The notes under the pieces: model-generated
Database searches by the model: none
Seen by the model: the letters and a program-made list of their open reading frames with translations, nothing else
Told to the model about the DNA's origin: nothing
Part shown: piece after piece, positions 5,692 to 64,000 of the stretch
How positions within the stretch are numbered: position 1 is the stretch's first letter
Layout of the letters: every line of letters starts with the position of its first letter
NCBI RefSeq assembly: GCF_000024205.1
Contig: NC_013216.1
Location: 3,410,001 to 3,474,000 of the forward strand
Length of the DNA: 64,000 nucleotides
Direction of reading: 5' to 3'
DNA from: Desulfofarcimen acetoxidans DSM 771
GTDB taxonomy: Bacteria; Bacillota; Desulfotomaculia; Desulfotomaculales; Desulfofarciminaceae
Position numbers and translations under genes: made by a program

Positions 5692-5786
5692 TATAAACAC
5701 TACCTTAGGTTAAGCTGCGATGGGTCTCATTACTCTCTCTATTCAAAAGCCTGGCTTTCGATTTGCTTCGGCTATTAGAACGGGTT

Positions 5787-6037
5787 CGCTATGTTTATCC
5801 CCTCTCCGTTCAGGGCTGCGCGCAGGACGTCTCTAAGAAATCCTTTGGACCGAACTAAGAGCCCCTCGATGTGCGCATGGGTTCTCAAATCTTTGCTGCA
5901 TGGTCTTACACCAGAGATTTTTACCTTTTAGTGACTTATTGTATGCACTGCCGGGGCTCTAAGTTCGGATACCCAAAGGATTTCTAAGAGCCGTTAGCCT
6001 GCGCTTCGCCAGTCACTCCAACGGGATAAACATAGCG
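5787..6037. repeat. 251-bp palindromic (MITE-like) element
   Basis: The rsmE-mtaB gap (5692-6125) has no gene. Instead, left arm 5787-5865 is an imperfect inverted repeat of right arm 5953-6037. Both read CGCTATGTTTATCCC at the outside, TAAGAAATCCTTTGG in the middle and AGAGCCCC at the inside. The unpaired centre is about 87 bases. The arms differ by several indels, so this is an old element. The RNA could fold into one very long hairpin. Confidence 0.8.
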
Positions 6038-7955: not shown

Positions 7956-9080
7956 TTAACCCATAATCACGTCTTTTACTTTTTCAAAAAAACCCTTATC
8001 CGTGCTGGAGACATTTTTTCCACCCAGCCGGGCAAATTCCCGCAGCAGTTCTTTTTGCTTGTCGTTTAGTTTGGTGGGGGTAACCACCTTGATTACCACA
8101 TGGTGATCGCCCCTGCCATGACCGTTCAGTTGCTTGACACCTTTGCCCCGCAAGCGGATAACCGTCCCGTTTTGCGTACCCTCCGGAACTTTCAGCTTAT
8201 GTTTGCCATCCAGTGTATCCACATCCAGCTCATCGCCCAGGGAAGCCTGAACAAAGGTGATGGGAACTTCGCTGATAATGTCATAATTCTCACGCCGGAA
8301 AATTTCATGGGACGCTACCCTGATAAATACGTACAGATCACCGTGCGGGCCGCCAAGTGTTCCCGCCTCACCCTCACCGGAAAGACGCAGGCGGGAGCCG
8401 GTATCTACTCCGGCCGGAACCTTGACATGAATATTTTTAGTCCTCCGCACCTGTGTGGAACCATGACAGGTCGGGCAGGGCTTATCGATAATTTTACCCC
8501 GTCCGCGGCATTTTTCGCAGGTACGGGTCTGGACTATCCGGCCAAAGGCAGTATTTTGAGCATATTGCACCTGACCGCTGCCACCGCAGCCGTCGCAGGT
8601 TTTCGAGGAAGTCCCCGGAGCTGCCCCGCTGCCGCCACAGGTAGTACAGTTTTCCGTGCGAGGAATCTTAATATCTCTTTCCACACCAAAGGCAGCCTCG
8701 GTAAAGGATATTTCAATCTCCAGACGTAAGTCGGCGCCTCTCTCCGGGCCGCGCCTGCGTCCACCGCCGCCGCCACCAAAAAACATATCGAATATATCGC
8801 CCAGACCGCCAAAATCACTGAAATCAAAACCGCCACCGCCAAAACCGCCCTGCTGCTCAAAAGCGGCGTGGCCGTAATGGTCATATGCAGCTTTCTTCTG
8901 GGGATCCTGCAAAACATCATAAGCCTCGGCTATCTCCTTAAACTTAGCCTCGGCATTAGCGTCACCGGTGTTAACATCCGGGTGATATTTACGGGCCAGC
9001 TTGCGAAAGGCCTTTTTTATCTCCTCAACCGAAGCGTCTTTTGACACGCCCAAAGCCTCGTAATAATCTCGCTTTGCCAT
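7956..9080 (-). CDS. dnaJ: Co-chaperone DnaJ (Hsp40)
   Basis: DnaJ delivers unfolded clients to DnaK and stimulates its ATPase. The 374-residue protein is a full type I Hsp40. It has a J domain at 1-70 with HPD at residues 33-35, a Gly/Phe-rich region at about 74-110, and four CxxCxGxG zinc-finger repeats at about 140-215 ([32 protein letters not shown]). Two C-terminal substrate-binding domains follow. It lies 195 bases downstream of dnaK. The gap holds a hairpin, a copy of the dispersed repeat and a possible internal promoter, so dnaJ may be expressed partly apart from dnaK. Confidence 0.97.
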
Positions 9081-9124
9081 GAGTACACCACCTTGCTTGC
9101 TACTCTCTTTTATATACCTTAAAC

Positions 9125-54687: not shown

Positions 54688-55323
54688 CTAAGGTACCCGA
54701 ATATATACTATTCTGTCTGATGCGTCTTCTTTACTGACAGAAGTGGCAACTGGTATCTTAGTATATAATTTCGAAAACCTGAAGGTAGAAATAATTACAC
54801 AAGCCTCGGCTCTCGTTACGACAGCATCAGTGCTATTCTTAAATATCTCTTTAGGAATCTTTTCCTTAGGGATTATTTTATAAATATCGCTTTGATTTAA
54901 CAGTTCCATAGGACGTATAGTATTATCTGGATAAGCATATAAAAAATTATAGTCTATCGCTTTTTGAAGCCCGATCCTTGCCCATACGGGAATATCGTCA
55001 TAATCATTGAATTTATTTAATGGAACCTGATTTTCTTTTTTTTCAATGTTATTAATGATCTTACTAAGCATAACCGCAAAAACCGCTCGAGTAACTGGTT
55101 CATCAGGCTTGAAACTACCGTCCGGATATCCATTAACAACACCCATTACCATTGCTTCCTCAATATATTTCTCAGCCCAGTGTCCATAGTAATCATAGTT
55201 ATGTTCGTTAGTTTTTGTCTTATTCTTGCCAATAGCAACCATAGAGCCGTGCGTTGCAATTACAATACCAATTATTATACCAATACAAGCTATAGAAAAA
55301 TATAGTTGAAGCATTTTTTTCAT
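54688..55323 (-). CDS. SLH-domain surface protein
   Basis: SLH domains bind pyruvylated wall polymers. From the ATG at 55323 (after GAGGAGTGTTGATA) the product is 211 residues. A signal anchor lies at about 6-27. One clear SLH unit follows (YYGHWAEKYIEEAMVMGVVN, GYPDGSFKPDEPVTRAVFAV), then a second weaker one (VWARIGLQKAIDYNFLYAYP, DNTIRPMELLNQ), and perhaps a third (TDAVVTRAEACVII). No other domain is present, so it may act by itself as a wall-associated factor. It lies upstream of, but apart from, the holA unit. Confidence 0.85.
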   Translation of the reverse strand: MKKMLQLYFSIACIGIIIGIVIATHGSMVAIGKNKTKTNEHNYDYYGHWAEKYIEEAMVMGVVNGYPDGSFKPDEPVTRAVFAVMLSKIINNIEKKENQVPLNKFNDYDDIPVWARIGLQKAIDYNFLYAYPDNTIRPMELLNQSDIYKIIPKEKIPKEIFKNSTDAVVTRAEACVIISTFRFSKLYTKIPVATSVSKEDASDRIVYIRVP

Positions 55324-55436
55324 TATCAACACTCCTCAGACATTAACCGATATATCAAAGCAGCAACACTTTCCCACACTGTACACTAGCCACAATCAGC
55401 TATTTTATTATAATCCTTTGACATATTGCAGTTCTC

Positions 55437-56102
55437 TTAGCCATAATTATAGTAACGGTAATCTTCCCCCGGATCATCAGTCATGTTCAAAACAGTTGCA
55501 ATAATTCGGGCATTTACATTAAGAAGTAATTCCTTAGACTTTTGAACCATCGCAATTTTAGACTTACTCTGAGCCACTACCAAAAGGACCCCATCCATAT
55601 TAGATGCCATTAAAGCAGCATCAGTTAATGGAGCCACCGGTGGTGTATCAATCAATACTATATCGAACATTTCAGCCAAATCAGAAATAAATTCCTTTGT
55701 TCTATTAGAACTTATCAGTTCAACCGGATTAGGAGGAACAGATCCAGTGGTGATTAGCTTTAATCCATCTATTCCCACATTTTTCAATCCAAGATCCAAT
55801 GGGAGTCTCCCTAAAATGATATCTACTAATCCCTTGTTATTGGATTGACCAAATACCGTATGCAGACCGGGCTTTCGAAAATCACAATCTAATAATACAG
55901 CTTTTTCTCCAGCTTGAGCAAAGGCTACGCCAAGATTAGCTACAGTAAGAGTTTTTCCTTCACCGCACCCGGCACTTGTTATTAATAGAGTCTTAAGAGG
56001 CTTATTTAACACAGAAAAATGAATATTTGTACGCAATATTCGGTAAGCTTCAGCTATTGGTGATTTAGGATTATTGATTGTTATCAGTTTATTGCTAAAC
56101 AT
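55437..56102 (-). CDS. CpsD/CapB-type tyrosine autokinase
   Basis: BY-kinases control polysaccharide export. The 221-residue product has ITSAGCGEGKTLTVANLGV (Walker A; the usual order is PxxGKT), LLDCDFRKPGLHTVFG (A' motif), FDIVLIDTPP (Walker B), and a Tyr-rich tail (YRYYNYG) for autophosphorylation. The N-terminal AEAYRILRTNI motif is standard. The start at 56102 follows AAAGGAGTTATTTC; an upstream in-frame start adds an unlike 12 residues. It follows the Wzz-like gene by 92 bases. Glycosyltransferases are not in this window, so this pair may serve a locus elsewhere or be a remnant. Confidence 0.9.
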   Translation of the reverse strand: MFSNKLITINNPKSPIAEAYRILRTNIHFSVLNKPLKTLLITSAGCGEGKTLTVANLGVAFAQAGEKAVLLDCDFRKPGLHTVFGQSNNKGLVDIILGRLPLDLGLKNVGIDGLKLITTGSVPPNPVELISSNRTKEFISDLAEMFDIVLIDTPPVAPLTDAALMASNMDGVLLVVAQSKSKIAMVQKSKELLLNVNARIIATVLNMTDDPGEDYRYYNYG

Positions 56103-56194
56103 GAAATAACTCCTTTCATTCAACAATATTATTCGCATAAAGCAGCTAATACTTAAGGATAGATAGATTTAGATAAAACTCTTCTTTTGCTAAA

Positions 56195-56866
56195 TTATTT
56201 GATTTTCGGTATATTACCATAAACCGGCAAACCAAAGTATCTTTCTATGTCTTCATTTGATTTGACGGTTTGATCTATAAACTCACGCAATAAGAGAATA
56301 CCAATCGCAATCATCAAGCTTAATAAACCTGCAATTAATATATTAAGTTTTTCATTTGGCTTAATGGGCGAATTTGATGGTATTGCTATATCTATTACTT
56401 TTGCACCATTAGTATTAAGTTCCATGATATCAACAATTATTTCCACAAAAACCCTACTAGTAATATTAGCCAAATGAGCGGCTGTATTGGGATTTGGATC
56501 TACAACAGTTATATTTATTAACTGGCTCTCCTTAACAGGCTGAACACTAACTTTGCCAATAAATTGATCCGGGGTTATATCTAGTTTTTCAACTTGGAGT
56601 ACTTTTTCAGCCACAGTTCTGCTAACAGCAATCTTACTATATGTCTTTGCCAATTCAGTAGACAGCATAATGTCTTGATAATCGAGTCCACCCATAATCC
56701 TTTGACTTTTGTTGTTAACCAATATTGTCGCTGTCGCACTATATACCGGCGTTAAGAAATAATAACTTATAATACCGCTGGTAAGCACCGCGATAAAGGG
56801 CAGTATTAACAATAATAGTTTCCCCTTTTTCAATATCCTAATAATATCCTTTATTTCTAGTTCCAC
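56195..56866 (-). CDS. Wzz/CapA-like chain-length and kinase-activator protein
   Basis: The 223-residue product has two transmembrane helices (about 18-38 and 175-193) around an extracytosolic Wzz domain (VYSATATILVNNKSQRIMG, LAKTYSKIAVSRTVAEKVL, ITVVDPNPNTAAHLANITS). This is the CapA/YveK half of the split Gram-positive BY-kinase system, and would activate the CpsD-like protein downstream. GTG at 56866 follows AGGAGGTTTTTGT. The end (FGLPVYGNIPKI) is the typical cytosolic tail. The 290-base upstream gap shows a weak CACCT/AGGTG hairpin near 57110-57135, perhaps ending the ABC transporter transcript. Confidence 0.9.
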   Translation of the reverse strand: MELEIKDIIRILKKGKLLLLILPFIAVLTSGIISYYFLTPVYSATATILVNNKSQRIMGGLDYQDIMLSTELAKTYSKIAVSRTVAEKVLQVEKLDITPDQFIGKVSVQPVKESQLINITVVDPNPNTAAHLANITSRVFVEIIVDIMELNTNGAKVIDIAIPSNSPIKPNEKLNILIAGLLSLMIAIGILLLREFIDQTVKSNEDIERYFGLPVYGNIPKIK

Positions 56867-57156: not shown

Positions 57157-58941
57157 TTAAATTTGATTTGTACACGCCAAAGAATAAAAACGGCTCTCCT
57201 TGTTTTCCATCAATAATCTATAATTTCCTTGTTCTATGACTCGCCCCTGCTCCAATACAAATATCCGGTCAACATTTTTAATAGTGGAAATACGATGAGC
57301 GATAACCACAATAGTCATCTTACCCTGTAAACCATCAATAGCTTCTTGAATACGTTTTTCATTTTCTAAATCCAGAGAACTGGTGGCTTCATCTAAGATT
57401 AAAACTGTCGGCTTTCGTAATAGAGCTCTCGCCAAAACAATACGCTGCCGCTCACCACCAGACAGTCGAATACCTCTGTCTCCTACTAAAGTATCAAGGC
57501 CATCCTGCAAACCGTTGACAAAGAAATCGACAGAGGCTAACCGTAAAGCATTCCAAATTTCATTCTCGGAAGCATCCGGACAAAAACACAACATATTGTC
57601 CCTAATACTGGTATTAAATAAAAAAGCATCCTGGGGTACATATCCAATAGAATTTCTCCATTGGAGCAAATTCTCCAGCAATGGCTTACCGTCAATTAAA
57701 ATATTTCCCTCTTTCGGTTTCAGTAATCCTATCAACAAATCCACCACAGTACTTTTACCTGCACCTGAAACACCAACGAAAGCAATAGTCCTACCAGCAG
57801 GAAGAAAAAGATTTAACTCATTTAAAGAGTAGTTTATAGAGGAGGAATCATAGTAAAAGGAAACATTACGAAATTGCACCCCGTGATACAAATCGATCTT
57901 CTTTGATGCCTCATTTTCTGGTAGCCTTTCCCCGGCGGCAAGACATTGATTTTCCAATTCCCTTGCGGCTCGAAAAGCAGGAAGTGTATTGTTGATATTC
58001 TGCAGTCCCATCTGAAAGGAAGAAAGTCTGGGCCAGAGGCGGGCAGAAATTACTGAAATCACAATAAACTCCTGTGGGTTGAGCTTAAATATCTCAATGG
58101 CACTGAACAGGAATAAACTAATAAATACCGCTGAACCAACTTTGTACAACATATCAGTCCGAGTCTGAATTTGACTAAATTCACTAAGGTTTTGCTTCAT
58201 CATATCACGAATCTTGATAAAGTTATTTATTTGGACCAACTCAATACCATGGCTTTTAATTTCTTTTAAGCCGTTTAGGTTTTCTGTAAGGTCAAATAAT
58301 AAATTTCTGTTTAAGTCAGATATATTTTGACCCATCTTTCGGGATTCTTTAACGAAGTTCTGAAAGAATATAAATAAAACTATAGCACCGGCCAGCACAA
58401 AACAAGTTAGAACTGGGGCTATCAAAACACAAATAACAACCTGTATTAAAGTGGTTAGAACCGTAGTTGTTATCTGTAAAAAATAGTTTAGCCCAACATA
58501 AACACGCATTAGTTCTGAAATTATTATATTGGTAATATCCGATTTTGTCCTGGATATTATAAGCTGCCAATCAGCATAAACCACAGCACGATACAGCCTG
58601 GCAGATAATAATACTCCAAATGATTGCTGGAGATCAAAATTAACTAAGGATTGATAACGCTTCAGCCAGCTTTGCACCCAAATAACACTTAGATACAACA
58701 ACAATACAACCGGAAGGCTTAATGTCACACACATGTTTTGACAAATACCTCTTATCACAGAAGTCATTCCACTGGTTGCTTCTATACCGGGAATGATGCC
58801 GGACACAACTAATAACGGTATAATCATTAATACTCCTATACCTTCCAGCATCCCCAGCGCAATCATTAGCAGCACATTTACAACAAACCTAATTCTCGAT
58901 AAATTATATAAATCCTTGATATATAACAAAAGCATATCCAT
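57157..58941 (-). CDS. Lasso-peptide ABC exporter (LasD-type)
   Basis: The 594-residue half-transporter has six transmembrane helices (about 1-320) and an ATPase domain: Walker A GVSGAGKSTVVDLL, Q-loop VPQDAFLFNTS, signature RLSGGERQR, Walker B VLILDEATSSLD, and H-loop VIAHRIS. There is no C39 peptidase domain, as expected for lasso exporters, which receive an already trimmed peptide. It starts 4 bases after the nucleotidyltransferase stop. It closes the operon and likely also gives self-immunity. The substrate is inferred from context. Confidence 0.88.
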   Translation of the reverse strand: MDMLLLYIKDLYNLSRIRFVVNVLLMIALGMLEGIGVLMIIPLLVVSGIIPGIEATSGMTSVIRGICQNMCVTLSLPVVLLLYLSVIWVQSWLKRYQSLVNFDLQQSFGVLLSARLYRAVVYADWQLIISRTKSDITNIIISELMRVYVGLNYFLQITTTVLTTLIQVVICVLIAPVLTCFVLAGAIVLFIFFQNFVKESRKMGQNISDLNRNLLFDLTENLNGLKEIKSHGIELVQINNFIKIRDMMKQNLSEFSQIQTRTDMLYKVGSAVFISLFLFSAIEIFKLNPQEFIVISVISARLWPRLSSFQMGLQNINNTLPAFRAARELENQCLAAGERLPENEASKKIDLYHGVQFRNVSFYYDSSSINYSLNELNLFLPAGRTIAFVGVSGAGKSTVVDLLIGLLKPKEGNILIDGKPLLENLLQWRNSIGYVPQDAFLFNTSIRDNMLCFCPDASENEIWNALRLASVDFFVNGLQDGLDTLVGDRGIRLSGGERQRIVLARALLRKPTVLILDEATSSLDLENEKRIQEAIDGLQGKMTIVVIAHRISTIKNVDRIFVLEQGRVIEQGNYRLLMENKESRFYSLACTNQI

Positions 58942-58945
58942 AGTG

Positions 58946-60133
58946 CTAATTCCTTGTTCTCAACTTTTGCAAACGACGACTTAAAAATGTAAAAGGGCGT
59001 ATGATATAGTACAATACATACAGTTTATCAGGTAAAGCTATAAGCTTGATATCTCTTATATTAGGCCCAATTAACCGCATTAAAAATTTATACCTGCTTT
59101 TCCAACTATTATGAATTTGAAAATCGTAAAGAAGTTGCCTGTTGGTATAACTATTAGTTTTACTAATTTCATTATCAACTGCTATCAGACACAAGTTCAT
59201 CGCATTACAGGCCATCTTCCATGCATATCGATCCTTAGCTACAGTTGTTAATAAAATGGGCGGCACAGGCAGATCCATAAGGAGGTTAGCCATTATTAAC
59301 GACTGGTGAAATGTAGTCTGCATATTTGTTTTTCTCACCAAATCCATAATATTATTCCAATCAATCTTTTCTTGCTGCAAAAACTTTACAATATCATTAA
59401 GCCAACGTAAACGAAACCAGGCATGCTTAGCCCCATGCAGTATTAGATACAATAACCACTCCTCGTCTAAAAGCACTGGCAAAGGGTTACCAGCTATCCC
59501 AATTCTATTAACGTTGCCCTCAATCGGCAGAGATAGTACATATCCGCGATCAATAGGCTTTATGTGAAGCTCCAAATTAATCTCCTTACTGCTGTGCCAG
59601 TAACTAAAATGAAAAGAGTTGGGTGAAGCTTTTGAATATATCTCAAGCTGACGGGTTGTCAAATTCTTCGTATCTATTCTGTAGTAGCCTTCATTCTCTA
59701 ATATTGCTTGAGCTTTTTCCAATAGATCTGGATGGACCAGTATATCGATATCCTTAGACGGTCTAAGATATATGTCACCATACAAACGCAAAGCCAGGGG
59801 CACGCCCTTTAATACAAGACAAGGTATGCCGTGATTTTCTAAACACTTTACAATTCTAACCGTTTCCCCGGTCATGCTCAGTGCCTTAATAGTATTCTCC
59901 CGGCATTTCTGCCTCAAAAGACAGAGAACATTTCCAGGTACAACCGGGTTATTTAATTGGCTGAGTGTTTTATAGACTATGGGGTATACACGATGGTGAA
60001 CTGCCAGATGGGCAAAGAATTGCCAGTCAGTTGGTTTATTCAATAGCATTTCAGTTTTGGTTGTATCACTACTGATACTTGCAAGCATCAATGAAAGCTC
60101 ATGGGGAATTTTCTTAAAAGGATTGTCTAACAT
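58946..60133 (-). CDS. Nucleotidyltransferase-family protein of the lasso operon
   Basis: The 395-residue product belongs to the NTP_transf_5 type (PF14907). It has VLKGVPLALRLYGDIYLRPS, then SKDIDILVHPD with the paired Asp (DxD) metal ligands, and LELHIKPIDRGYVL. This family recurs in lasso clusters of Firmicutes with HprK-like kinases; its role there is unsettled. The start ATG at 60133 sits after GGGGTGATACT, which lies in the cyclase gene's 3' end; a farther start to 60160 is rejected. It overlaps nothing (4-base gap) and is tightly coupled with the cyclase and exporter genes. Confidence 0.85.
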   Translation of the reverse strand: MLDNPFKKIPHELSLMLASISSDTTKTEMLLNKPTDWQFFAHLAVHHRVYPIVYKTLSQLNNPVVPGNVLCLLRQKCRENTIKALSMTGETVRIVKCLENHGIPCLVLKGVPLALRLYGDIYLRPSKDIDILVHPDLLEKAQAILENEGYYRIDTKNLTTRQLEIYSKASPNSFHFSYWHSSKEINLELHIKPIDRGYVLSLPIEGNVNRIGIAGNPLPVLLDEEWLLYLILHGAKHAWFRLRWLNDIVKFLQQEKIDWNNIMDLVRKTNMQTTFHQSLIMANLLMDLPVPPILLTTVAKDRYAWKMACNAMNLCLIAVDNEISKTNSYTNRQLLYDFQIHNSWKSRYKFLMRLIGPNIRDIKLIALPDKLYVLYYIIRPFTFLSRRLQKLRTRN

Positions 60134-60137
60134 AGTA

Positions 60138-62102
60138 TCACCCCATCGTACTTTCTTCATATTTTAGAAACCGGCTAAAAATTAAACTTCGGAGAAGCAT
60201 ACGCAAGCTGGTGTTATCCGGTGACTCATCACTTAAGGTAGTAAATTTAGTTAGTTCTTCACGAATTTTTAAAATATCCAGATATATACGTTCAGATTCC
60301 CGGTCCCCAATTTTTTTTATCTCAGCGATCAGCTGAGGCCAACAAGGTTGCAGACGCTGAGTCAAGTCGGCGCTCTGTTTTCCTCTTACTGTTCTGTTCA
60401 GCCTAACTTTGTCGGGTAAAATTCCCTCCATCGCACGACGCAATAAAAACCGGCTTTTATCCCCCCGTGCAAACTGGTTATCCGGCACACTGAGACAGAA
60501 CTCGATAACTCGCTTGTCCATAGTTGGATCACGCCAGGCTACTCCATATTTTAACGACAGTTTAGTGGAGATAACACCCATGTGACTAAAAACTTCCGGA
60601 CTTAAAAATTTTCTGCGCAATTCGTATGAGTCCGATTTGTTTATATTTAACTTAACCTTCTCAATCCGTTCTAACCGCTCTTGTACAGCGGTACGGTAAG
60701 CAAAATCCCGGTTAATAGGTGATAATAAATATTGCCAATTAATAAATTGAGAGCGGTTTTTAAGCTGATCATATTTTTTTTGTATTTTATAAGGCATCAG
60801 TGCTTTATACAATCCTAACAAAGCCCTTAGCGGATTCCGCTGGCATCTGGCATAGGCCCAACTTTCACGGAATAAACAGCACCACTGCCCTGCCCGAAAC
60901 AGGGATTGTAAATAGGGTTGAATGTAGCCCCAAGAAATAGTAACGTTACCGGCAGAACCATGTAAAACTACACCTATATTTCGTTCTTTTGCGGCAGCTA
61001 AGATACCGTCAATCCAAAATAAATTCTCTAAAATTTTATAGGGTTGTTCCAACATTGCAAATGCCTGTTTCGTATCACTTAATGAATGTTTATCATCAAA
61101 ACGACAGTAATTTGCATCAATATTTTCGAAATGTTCTTTTATAGCTTCAATATAAGGTGTTTCGTCAGCCAGCCATGAAGCAGGCAGCCAGTCGCGGTAA
61201 TCTTTTATTGGAACCGAAGTAAATGCCTGAATTCGATGTCCGGTTTCGTTAAGCTTCCGGGCAGCCATACAAGCCACCGAGGTAGAATCCAGCCCCCCGC
61301 TCATCATCACCCCTACAGGACGAGCACAGCGTAAACGACATTGAACCGCTTCTCCGAGAACTTGCCGGAAAGCCTCTTCATATTCACCATCTGACTTCAA
61401 TTTTAGTTCAGGCTGCCGTTCAGCCTCCCAGTAAGTCCGCTTCATTACCCCGTCAGGCCATATCCTAAGCGTATGCCCGGCAGGCAAGAGAAAAACGTTC
61501 TTATATAAAGTCAGTTCTGGATCCAGTTGATGTTTTACTGATGGGTCAGCCAGAAAATCGGCAATCCAGATCTCATTACGCTCTCTTGTAACCTCAGGCA
61601 AAACAAACAGCGGCTTAAGTAGTGTGGAAAAAACAAATAGCTCCGCCGACTGATAATAATAAAATGCCCTTGTCCCGGTAGGGTCCACAACACAGAACAA
61701 TTCCCGCCGGTTTTCGTCCCATATGGCAAAAGCAAAATCGCCTAAAAGGTATTTCGGACAATCCACCCCCCATTTCCGATAGGCCAGTAAAATTAACGTA
61801 CTGTCCGGCATACCCTCCCGGTGGGAATAGTTGATACCTAACTTATCAAATAAGTCGGTTCGGTTATCAATGATAGCATCCGCAGTAATAGTTAAACCAC
61901 TCAGTCCATCATGATATGGTAATATTTCCCGGTGCGACTCGAGAGTGATACACTGTATATGGCATCCCAAAAATACCTGTCCATCTTGCCAGGTACCTAC
62001 AGCGTCTGCATGATTAATACCTAATTTACGCATCATTGCCGCTCCAGTTTCAGGTGAAATCCGTCTGTCATCATAATAGTAAATGCCGCATATAGCGCTC
62101 AT
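60138..62102 (-). CDS. Lasso-peptide cyclase (asparagine synthetase-like, C protein)
   Basis: Lasso cyclases adenylate an Asp/Glu side chain of the core and close a macrolactam with the N-terminal amine. The 654-residue product has an N-terminal Ntn-like glutaminase domain (MSAICGIYYYDDRR; Cys at residue 5, not 2, so glutaminase activity is doubtful). The synthetase domain has the pyrophosphate loop GVMMSGGLDSTSVACMAARK. LSPEVFSHMG and DKSRFLLRRAMEGILPD are as in other C proteins. The length (about 600-650) is right. It follows the precursor gene by 82 bases. AsnB itself is possible by homology but not in this setting. Confidence 0.92.
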   Translation of the reverse strand: MSAICGIYYYDDRRISPETGAAMMRKLGINHADAVGTWQDGQVFLGCHIQCITLESHREILPYHDGLSGLTITADAIIDNRTDLFDKLGINYSHREGMPDSTLILLAYRKWGVDCPKYLLGDFAFAIWDENRRELFCVVDPTGTRAFYYYQSAELFVFSTLLKPLFVLPEVTRERNEIWIADFLADPSVKHQLDPELTLYKNVFLLPAGHTLRIWPDGVMKRTYWEAERQPELKLKSDGEYEEAFRQVLGEAVQCRLRCARPVGVMMSGGLDSTSVACMAARKLNETGHRIQAFTSVPIKDYRDWLPASWLADETPYIEAIKEHFENIDANYCRFDDKHSLSDTKQAFAMLEQPYKILENLFWIDGILAAAKERNIGVVLHGSAGNVTISWGYIQPYLQSLFRAGQWCCLFRESWAYARCQRNPLRALLGLYKALMPYKIQKKYDQLKNRSQFINWQYLLSPINRDFAYRTAVQERLERIEKVKLNINKSDSYELRRKFLSPEVFSHMGVISTKLSLKYGVAWRDPTMDKRVIEFCLSVPDNQFARGDKSRFLLRRAMEGILPDKVRLNRTVRGKQSADLTQRLQPCWPQLIAEIKKIGDRESERIYLDILKIREELTKFTTLSDESPDNTSLRMLLRSLIFSRFLKYEESTMG

Positions 62103-62184: not shown

Positions 62185-62337
62185 TTATGAGACATGATCA
62201 GTATGTTCGGTGTCATACATACAATCACTACCGCCATTAACTTTATACACTATATGATCTTCCGTGTTTTTAACATTAATCTCGGTAACTTGAGGCTCAG
62301 ACCATGGCTGTTTTTTACTTTGTATCAATTTTTCCAT
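62185..62337 (-). CDS. Probable lasso precursor peptide (A)
   Basis: A 50-codon gene from ATG 62337 (after AAAGGGGGTTTTATA) to TAA 62185. Residues 8-15 read KKQPWSEP, so W12-x-x-P15 fits the B1-recognised [YW]xxP leader motif. Thr25 is 10 residues after that Pro, the usual -2 Thr position, which would start the core at Asp27. That register has no Asp/Glu at positions 7-9 (Val33, Asn34, Gly35). Cutting before Gly35 instead gives G-G-S-D-C-M-Y-D at 35-42, an 8-residue ring via Asp42; before Gly36, a 9-residue ring via Glu44. It ends in Ser50, the residue modified by HprK-like kinases in paeninodin-type clusters. It lies between B2 and the cyclase. Confidence 0.75.
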   Translation of the reverse strand: MEKLIQSKKQPWSEPQVTEINVKNTEDHIVYKVNGGSDCMYDTEHTDHVS

Positions 62338-62359: not shown

Positions 62360-62821
62360 CTAAATTTTTATATAATCAGCAAATTTACCTACTACAACAA
62401 ACCGTTCCCTACCATATCCACCGGTTACTATCGTCTCACCACATCTTAACCAGGCATGAGCCACTAAACTATTTCCTTCATCCCTACGTACTCCGAGGTA
62501 AAGCGTATTAGCTATGCCTTGCTGTCGAAGTATTATTTTACCTACTACCGCCTGAACCAGACACTTGCTTTCCCAAGGAGTAAAGAAACTCACCGTTTCA
62601 ACTAACCAACCAACTCTTCTGGCTGCTTCGAGCATAATAACATCTTCCTCAACTGGCGATTCTCCCATATGTTTCCCGAGAACAGGAGAAAACCATCTAA
62701 AAGGCAACAGCAAGATAAACAATCGCACAACACCTGTCAGTAAAAAAGCTTCTATAAACAAAAACTGTTCCTTATATGGCAAAGCCAAGAATTTATTTAA
62801 CCGTTTGAGCAATATCAACAA
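62360..62821 (-). CDS. Lasso leader peptidase (B2, transglutaminase-like)
   Basis: B2 is the Cys protease that removes the leader. The 153-residue product has an N-terminal hydrophobic/helical half and a C-terminal catalytic part: WESKCLVQAVV with Cys87, LVAHAWLRC with His122, and a distant acidic partner. These fit the transglutaminase-like Cys-His-Asp set. The start is one of two TTG codons (62821 or 62818) after AAAGGAC, inside the B1 gene; overlap is about 29 bases. It is followed after 22 bases by the precursor gene. Confidence 0.9.
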   Translation of the reverse strand: MLILLKRLNKFLALPYKEQFLFIEAFLLTGVVRLFILLLPFRWFSPVLGKHMGESPVEEDVIMLEAARRVGWLVETVSFFTPWESKCLVQAVVGKIILRQQGIANTLYLGVRRDEGNSLVAHAWLRCGETIVTGGYGRERFVVVGKFADYIKI

Positions 62822-63089
62822 GTCCTTTATTATAGAGTCTACTTACAAAAGACAATACATCACGCTGACAATTTCCTTCATCCACATCGTATTCTTTTAT
62901 CAGCGCTGTCACTAACTCTTGCACTGTATTGGGCTGCTCCAGCAAAAGCCATATACTGCTGCCGATACTATTTAGTCCATATATCTCTCCTTTTTCAATA
63001 TTTAGCATATATTTTTCCCCGTTCATACCTGCGACTACCAATCCTTTAGCCTTAGCTATAGTACTACCCAGTCCGATTTGCAACCCCAT
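62793..63089 (-). CDS. Lasso leader-binding protein (B1, PqqD-like RRE)
   Basis: B1 is a RiPP recognition element that binds the leader and hands it to B2. The 98-residue product has the PqqD-like fold: GEKYMLNIEKGEIYGLNSIG (beta hairpin), SSIWLLLEQPNTVQELVTAL, and EGNCQRDVLSFVSRLYNKGL. The length matches the family (about 80-100). It overlaps B2 by about 29 bases, and lies 29 bases after the kinase stop. The ATG at 63089 follows AGAAAGAGGTTTGTGAG. Confidence 0.9.
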   Translation of the reverse strand: MGLQIGLGSTIAKAKGLVVAGMNGEKYMLNIEKGEIYGLNSIGSSIWLLLEQPNTVQELVTALIKEYDVDEGNCQRDVLSFVSRLYNKGLVDIAQTVK

Positions 63090-63118: not shown

Positions 63119-64000
63119 TTATAAATGCGCTGCAAGCGAGCAATCAGCTATGTCCTGATTTATTAAACGTACCTGTTCCTCCAGAGAAAACAGCCCTTCA
63201 GGTCTGGTCAGACGGGAAACACTTACCTGTCTTGCTACAGCTATACATAGTTTAAAATAAACCTCCATTAACCCTAGCCCTTTAATTAGCCAGCAACGGT
63301 AAGTGTGTTTCAATAACACTGCCAGTTTATCCATACCCCAAAGTGGCTTAAGTGTCACATCACGGCAACTTTCCGCTCTAAGTTCGTATACAGCAACCAG
63401 TGAAACAGGCGATTGGATGAAGCCATTATGTACAGGAATACTATATTTTTTCTTCTCAATCCCATTATAAACCGGTGCCAGTTGTGCAGTATCAAGCCCT
63501 ATTTCTTCTGCACTGTCCCGCCACAGTTTCTGCTGTGGGTAGGCGGATTGCACCAATGCAGCACCATCGGATTTTAGTGTCACCGCCGCCACGTCATCTG
63601 TTAAAAAAGAATAACCACGTTGTCTGAAGGCAGCTAATAGTGTAGATTTACCTGCACCTGATGCCCCTGTAAAAATTACACCGCATCCATTGATAACTAC
63701 AGCACTACCATGTATAGGCAAAATTCCTCTCTGCAGAAGCAAAGCTCCAAAAGAAGTGCCTAATAGAAAGAGGCGTACAATATGCTCTTCAGTCCGCTTA
63801 GCAGGATTAACAACGATACGGTTTCCATTTGTAACGTAATAACGGCCTATACCCTGAACTTGAAAAAGAAATTGGTTTTTTGCAACTTGATAGGTGTCAG
63901 TTTTCTCAACAGGGTTTAAAATATTGATAGGAACTTTACCATAACTAATACAAATATCAGGTGTACAAATAGAAGCAGGTAAAAGCTCTGGCAATAAAAA
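63119..64000 (-). CDS. HprK-like kinase of the lasso operon (5' end beyond window)
   Basis: The open frame runs to the right edge; the codons before the first possible start (TTG 63994) read F-L in frame, so the N terminus lies outside. It has an N-terminal domain, then the P-loop VIFTGASGAGKSTLLAA after LPIHGSAVV, and FLTDDVAAV, as in the HprK-like kinases of paeninodin-type clusters, which phosphorylate the C-terminal Ser of the core. The precursor here ends in Ser. It is the first visible gene of the operon; the promoter lies beyond the window. Confidence 0.88.
   Translation of the reverse strand, partial: FLLPELLPASICTPDICISYGKVPINILNPVEKTDTYQVAKNQFLFQVQGIGRYYVTNGNRIVVNPAKRTEEHIVRLFLLGTSFGALLLQRGILPIHGSAVVINGCGVIFTGASGAGKSTLLAAFRQRGYSFLTDDVAAVTLKSDGAALVQSAYPQQKLWRDSAEEIGLDTAQLAPVYNGIEKKKYSIPVHNGFIQSPVSLVAVYELRAESCRDVTLKPLWGMDKLAVLLKHTYRCWLIKGLGLMEVYFKLCIAVARQVSVSRLTRPEGLFSLEEQVRLINQDIADCSLAAHL

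Follow-up and report, generated by a model that had tools for sequence, protein, structure and literature searches.

The precursor operon

The window analysed here, a stretch of 64,000 nucleotides from the Desulfofarcimen acetoxidans DSM 771 genome (NC_013216.1, positions 3,410,001 to 3,474,000), carries a minus-strand operon with the gene order HprK-like kinase, B1, B2, A, C, nucleotidyltransferase and ABC exporter. The peptide kinase (63119..64000, minus strand; PF07475) starts past the window edge at about 64096, and its full reading frame is found at 8120-9097 of locus L008. It is followed on the same strand by the PqqD-type recognition protein B1 (62793..63089; NF033536 above cutoff), the leader peptidase B2 with a transglutaminase fold (62360..62821; NF033537, PF13471), the 50-residue precursor A (62185..62337), the lasso-cyclase homologue C with an Asn-synthase fold and SGGLDS at residue 268 (60138..62102), a nucleotidyltransferase-like tailoring enzyme of the PsmN type (58946..60160; PF14907), and the ABC exporter (57157..58941; PF00005). 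Among solved structures, B1 is closest to PbaB1 (PDB 9x90, E 3e-18), which reads the WxxP motif in a paeninodin-type cluster. Split B1 and B2, C, the HprK-like kinase and the nucleotidyltransferase all occur together, forming a complete paeninodin-type set in which the 50-codon gene is the sole precursor. Genes for an S-layer-homology protein, a CpsD-like ATPase and a Wzz chain-length protein adjoin the operon (54688-56866), matching the reported polysaccharide-locus setting of paeninodin clusters. A DUF1360 small membrane protein recurs beside related clusters (L010:12875-13207, L011:6650-6961, L021 near 14690) and was not seen beside the window operon.

The precursor reads MEKLIQSKKQPWSEPQVTEINVKNTEDHIVYKVNGGSDCMYDTEHTDHVS, and the minus strand 5' of its ATG contains a good ribosome-binding site, AAAGGGGG. 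It gave no HMM match to the NCBIfam and Pfam models. Since it is located between B2 and C in a recognised lasso-type operon and its leader aligns with those of relatives, the frame is not a chance one. Its leader contains the paeninodin-type WxxP motif W12-S-E-P15 (62293..62304, minus strand), which from its sequence and the kinship of B1 to PbaB1 is the putative B1-bound element; a role of WxxP in B1 recognition has been reported (PMC13381572). T25-E26 (62260..62265, minus strand), at P+10 and P+11, are the presumed final two leader residues. In a blind alignment with 15 relatives, W12, P15, E19, T25 and D38 are invariant and K32 is almost so, and the gaps fall between T25 and K32. Lys32 (62242..62244) and Asp38 (62224..62226), both on the minus strand, are the proposed ring amine donor and ring acid, and the C-terminal Ser50 (62188..62190, minus strand) is the predicted kinase target, for which PadeK is the precedent (PMC9266682).

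Re-reading the DNA confirmed the gene, frame and residues given in a preliminary description of this locus, including the 50 codons, the W-x-x-P leader and Thr25 ten residues after Pro15. Thr at position -2 is a recognition element for leader cleavage, with the cut expected at T+2 (PMC10368454), and known lasso rings contain 7-9 residues only (PMC13352647). With Thr25 at -2, the core is DHIVYKVNGGSDCMYDTEHTDHVS, which begins with D27-H28 in place of a small first residue (G/A/S/C/N) and, as had been stated, has no Asp or Glu at positions 7-9; the nearest acids stand at core 12 (D38) and core 16 (D42). The same description had named a canonical A gene beside the kinase, past the right edge, as the case that would overturn it. 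We looked for a second precursor there and found none; LuxR-type regulators and a transposase lie beyond the kinase. A precursor profile search of the host genome returned only the window gene and one paralogue about 0.96 Mb away, and a degenerate DNA pattern for extra precursors in the genome gave no match. The paralogue is a canonical lasso A gene with its own adjoining C, in a second paeninodin-type cluster (L009:7538-12758) whose core after TE is NGGGIGIDIASQGVDMSS. The host may produce one plain lasso plus one odd product.

A cyclase clade with a Lys-x5-Asp block

Related loci were collected by B2 and C searches covering the host's order and phylum, the class to which Sporomusa belongs and two other classes, and precursors were read from them by script. 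A tree of C proteins placed the window cyclase in a clade of 17 sequences, here termed clade X (support 100/97, and 100/99 with more outgroups), with which 18 non-redundant precursors are paired. Its sister group consists of the paralogue of the host itself (L009), L022 and L106, whose precursors are Lys-free, glycine-rich and canonical (cores NGGGIGID, LGGGFGGFD, HGGGYDGFD and NGGGYGWFD). The comparison set comprised 29 other C-linked precursors, from outside clade X, and 10 precursors whose loci have no C next to them. A plasmid search for close C genes reached 29-38% identity at best. The Desulforamulus aquiferis draft genome (L021:10430-10620) has no start codon in its first precursor frame and frame breaks in both C genes, for which sequencing errors are the probable cause.

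Compared with other lasso C genes, the window cyclase keeps SGGLDS and 69 of the 72 invariant columns. Its best match is the lasso cyclase model NF033535 at 424 bits, which is below the curated 525-bit cutoff. E542, a Glu kept by most lasso cyclases, is replaced by N, D, S or G in all 15 clade X cyclases with coverage, and was considered as a diagnostic of the clade; the idea was dropped, as the residue is lost in some others too (L084, L025 and L051 also vary). Asn8-Gly9, common to the window precursor and L085, was likewise dropped as a candidate cyclisation site because L085 has no adjoining cyclase.

Fifteen of the 18 clade X precursors contain Lys-x5-Asp, represented in the window by Lys32-Asp38 (KVNGGSD), and the other three contain Lys-x6-Asp. 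The blocks elsewhere in the clade are KLGDKPD, KVGDNTD, KISTGND, KIGCQHD, KKSGSGD, KLGGGGD, KKGGSGD, KVGFDPD, KSGYSTD, KGYTGND, KSGSGSD, KTGDHSD, KKGGGSD and KKFGISD. In 2000 shufflings of the cores, the motif occurred 2.6 times on average and seven times at most, against the 15 observed. It was spotted on the first seven or eight precursors and then tested on loci from the cyclase search, so that about half of the cases, fetched after the motif had been noticed, are independent of its discovery. Outside clade X, Lys-x5-Asp is present in 4 of the 29 other C-linked precursors (Fisher p 3e-6), and a Lys-Asp block in one of the 10 C-less precursors. All 29 of the other C-linked precursors carry an acid at core positions 7-10, versus 13/18 in clade X, and T+2 or T+3 is occupied by a small residue in 27/29 versus 8/18. 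A C-terminal Ser ends every clade X precursor (18/18) and every C-less one (10/10). The spacing also occurs at L154:6586-6720 (KGGTGND, Asp at T+9), in a precursor paired with a cyclase from outside clade X.

Within clade X the leader Thr is constant at P+10, usually as Thr-Glu, and it is the Lys-Asp block that shifts relative to it. The Asp lies at T+10 in eight precursors, at T+11, T+12 and T+13 in three each, and at T+21 in one. Such shifts occur even among precursors sharing one cyclase: L113 pairs KTGDHSD at T+10 with KKGGGSD at T+12, L125 has registers T+10 and T+11 with equal Lys-Asp spacing, and L112 has Lys-x6-Asp at T+10 and T+13. Between the orthologues L103 (TDFNKVGFDPD) and L125 (TRDFNKVGFNDD), one residue is inserted after Thr. 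If Thr fixed the cut, N-terminal rings would have to span 9 to 20 residues, versus the 7-9 known, while a cut following the block would leave H, M, K, A, E, G or N at -2, the position where Thr is the recognition element. A ring between the Lys side chain and Asp would keep a constant size across all clade X registers with Lys-x5-Asp. The preliminary description had proposed that either the cleavage site is non-canonical, the ring is of unusual size, or the product is not a simple lasso, and this proposal held up. Of the 18 clade X precursors, 8 conflict with the rule of Thr at -2 and a ring of 7-9.

Proposed product and known systems

Since Lys and Asp lie at a fixed distance across the group, the ring appears to be tied between these two side chains and not at the front end of the peptide. 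We hypothesize, with a probability of roughly 0.47, that B2 cuts after Glu26, that the cyclase joins the Lys32 side chain to Asp38, and that Ser50 is phosphorylated. On this reading the operon is a paeninodin-type RiPP locus, and its cyclase, as a member of a separate clade, would follow a substrate rule of its own. B1 would bind the WxxP motif of the leader and the kinase would phosphorylate Ser50, followed by B2 cleavage two residues past Thr25; C would then activate Asp38 with ATP and couple it to the Lys32 side-chain amine. In the predicted product, which the ABC protein would export, KVNGGSD forms a ring of 7 residues between a short N-terminal tail and a C-terminal tail that is phosphorylated and perhaps glycosylated as well. 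Still more tentatively, the whole clade of lasso-cyclase homologues may have switched nucleophile from the N-terminus to a Lys side chain, so that lasso-cluster genes would make phosphorylated peptides with Lys(i)-Asp(i+6) lactams, which are not classical lassos.

Several points weigh against a Lys-Asp lactam. Asp at T+10 in 8/18 clade X precursors is compatible with a normal 9-residue ring, mostly with Lys at position 3, so Lys could be merely a conserved ring residue. Some canonical-looking cores also have Lys at D-6 (L079, L084 with AGKG...ID, L026 and L154), and the clade X cyclase shows no diagnostic active-site change. Lasso cyclases are not known to act on a Lys side chain. The B2 register also appears not to be rigid, given that Thr is seemingly at -3 in several clostridial clusters. 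In the clostridial and related loci L025, L038, L040, L041, L051 and L076, Asp is at T+11, usually with Gly at T+3; these precursors would then form rings of 10 residues, unless their Thr is at -3.

The locus shares with the paeninodin type (paeninodin, pseudomycoidin and P. alginolyticus pba) the C, kinase, B1, B2, nucleotidyltransferase and ABC genes, the WxxP leader, Thr at P+10, an acidic tail, a C-terminal Ser and polysaccharide genes nearby. It differs in that its core has neither a small first residue nor an acid at 7-9, and in that its group carries the Lys-x5-Asp block at a varying distance from Thr. LPPs (PMC13381572) likewise have an HprK-like kinase, an RRE, a nucleotidyltransferase and an ABC exporter, but combine a YxxP leader with a SipW-like peptidase and have no cyclase, whereas the window combines WxxP with B2 and a C gene. 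Lariocidin B, a class V lasso, resembles the proposed product in having an isopeptide bond that involves a Lys side chain, but this bond links Lys2 with the C-terminal Arg17, depends on a clostripain-like peptidase and exists besides a normal N-terminal ring (PMC11451635). Graspetides resemble the proposed product in their side-chain to side-chain lactams, which are made by ATP-grasp ligases, in contrast to the asparagine-synthetase homologue proposed for the window. No description of Lys-x5-Asp lasso-type precursors was found in PMC full texts, a search whose scope excludes bioRxiv and most subscription journals. The window locus is a fresh variant of the paeninodin type, and its ring chemistry may itself be new. 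If the proposal is correct, side-chain lactams and N-terminal lasso rings would come from a single enzyme family, and lasso mining by Thr at -2 and an acid at 7-9 would overlook or mispredict a clade found in Desulfotomaculales, Sporomusa and their relatives.

Alternative explanations

An ordinary lasso with a sliding cut would also use the conserved Asp38: B2 would cut one or two residues before Lys32, and the N-terminus of Val30 or Tyr31 would be linked to Asp38 in a ring of 9 or 8 residues, with Lys as a conserved ring residue. Most of the eight T+10 members of clade X fit a 9-residue ring with Lys3 in the normal register, canonical AGKGxxxID cores carry Lys3 as well, and non-small first residues exist, such as Asn1 in metanodin (PMC12670498). 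We nevertheless think it unlikely, given that the cut must fall at varying distances from Thr, up to 13 residues beyond it, with no common residue at -1 or -2, while Thr and usually Glu stay conserved at P+10 and P+11; the cores would start with V, S, W, Y, N, Q or F, and the constant presence of Lys is left unexplained. Even with a sliding cut, two registers per cyclase offer a natural direct test of site selection by B2 and C. The rings put forward in the preliminary description, from a cut before Gly35 (8 residues, closed on Asp42) or Gly36 (9 residues, closed on Glu44), have in their favour the residue chemistry and spacing of one peptide. We consider them very improbable: Gly35, Gly36, Asp42 and Glu44 are not conserved, the cut would fall inside the conserved block, and the acid aligned across all relatives is Asp38, which together with Lys32 had been overlooked as a conserved core residue. 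Nor does the acidic, His-containing tail mark the peptide as rare for a lasso, as had been thought, since acidic Ser-ending tails are usual in the paeninodin-type cores collected here (for example, AGPGIKTPDAVQPDQDEMVHYS in L037).

It is also conceivable, though rather improbable, that the core is cleaved and phosphorylated and stays uncyclised, like the LPPs, which are linear (PMC13381572), or the C-less clusters. The universal C-terminal Ser agrees with this, as do C-less genomes (G501, G503) that retain A, B1, B2 and the kinase. Against it, the adjacent window C is full length and retains SGGLDS and 69 of the 72 invariant columns, and the Lys-Asp block, rare in C-less precursors, is kept in the C-linked ones of clade X. 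Precursors in loci L030, L024, L085, L147 and L023, mostly with adjoining B1, B2 and kinase, have no adjoining C, and no C homologue was found at E<=1e-30 in the whole genomes of S. ovata, Niameybacter and Desulfosporosinus I2. The ten C-less precursors, most of which lack a ring acid, are possibly linear phosphopeptides cut by B2 and distinct from LPPs. Two Niameybacter precursors (L024:4245-4484 and 5778-6005) have long cores with weak C2H2 zinc-finger-like matches.
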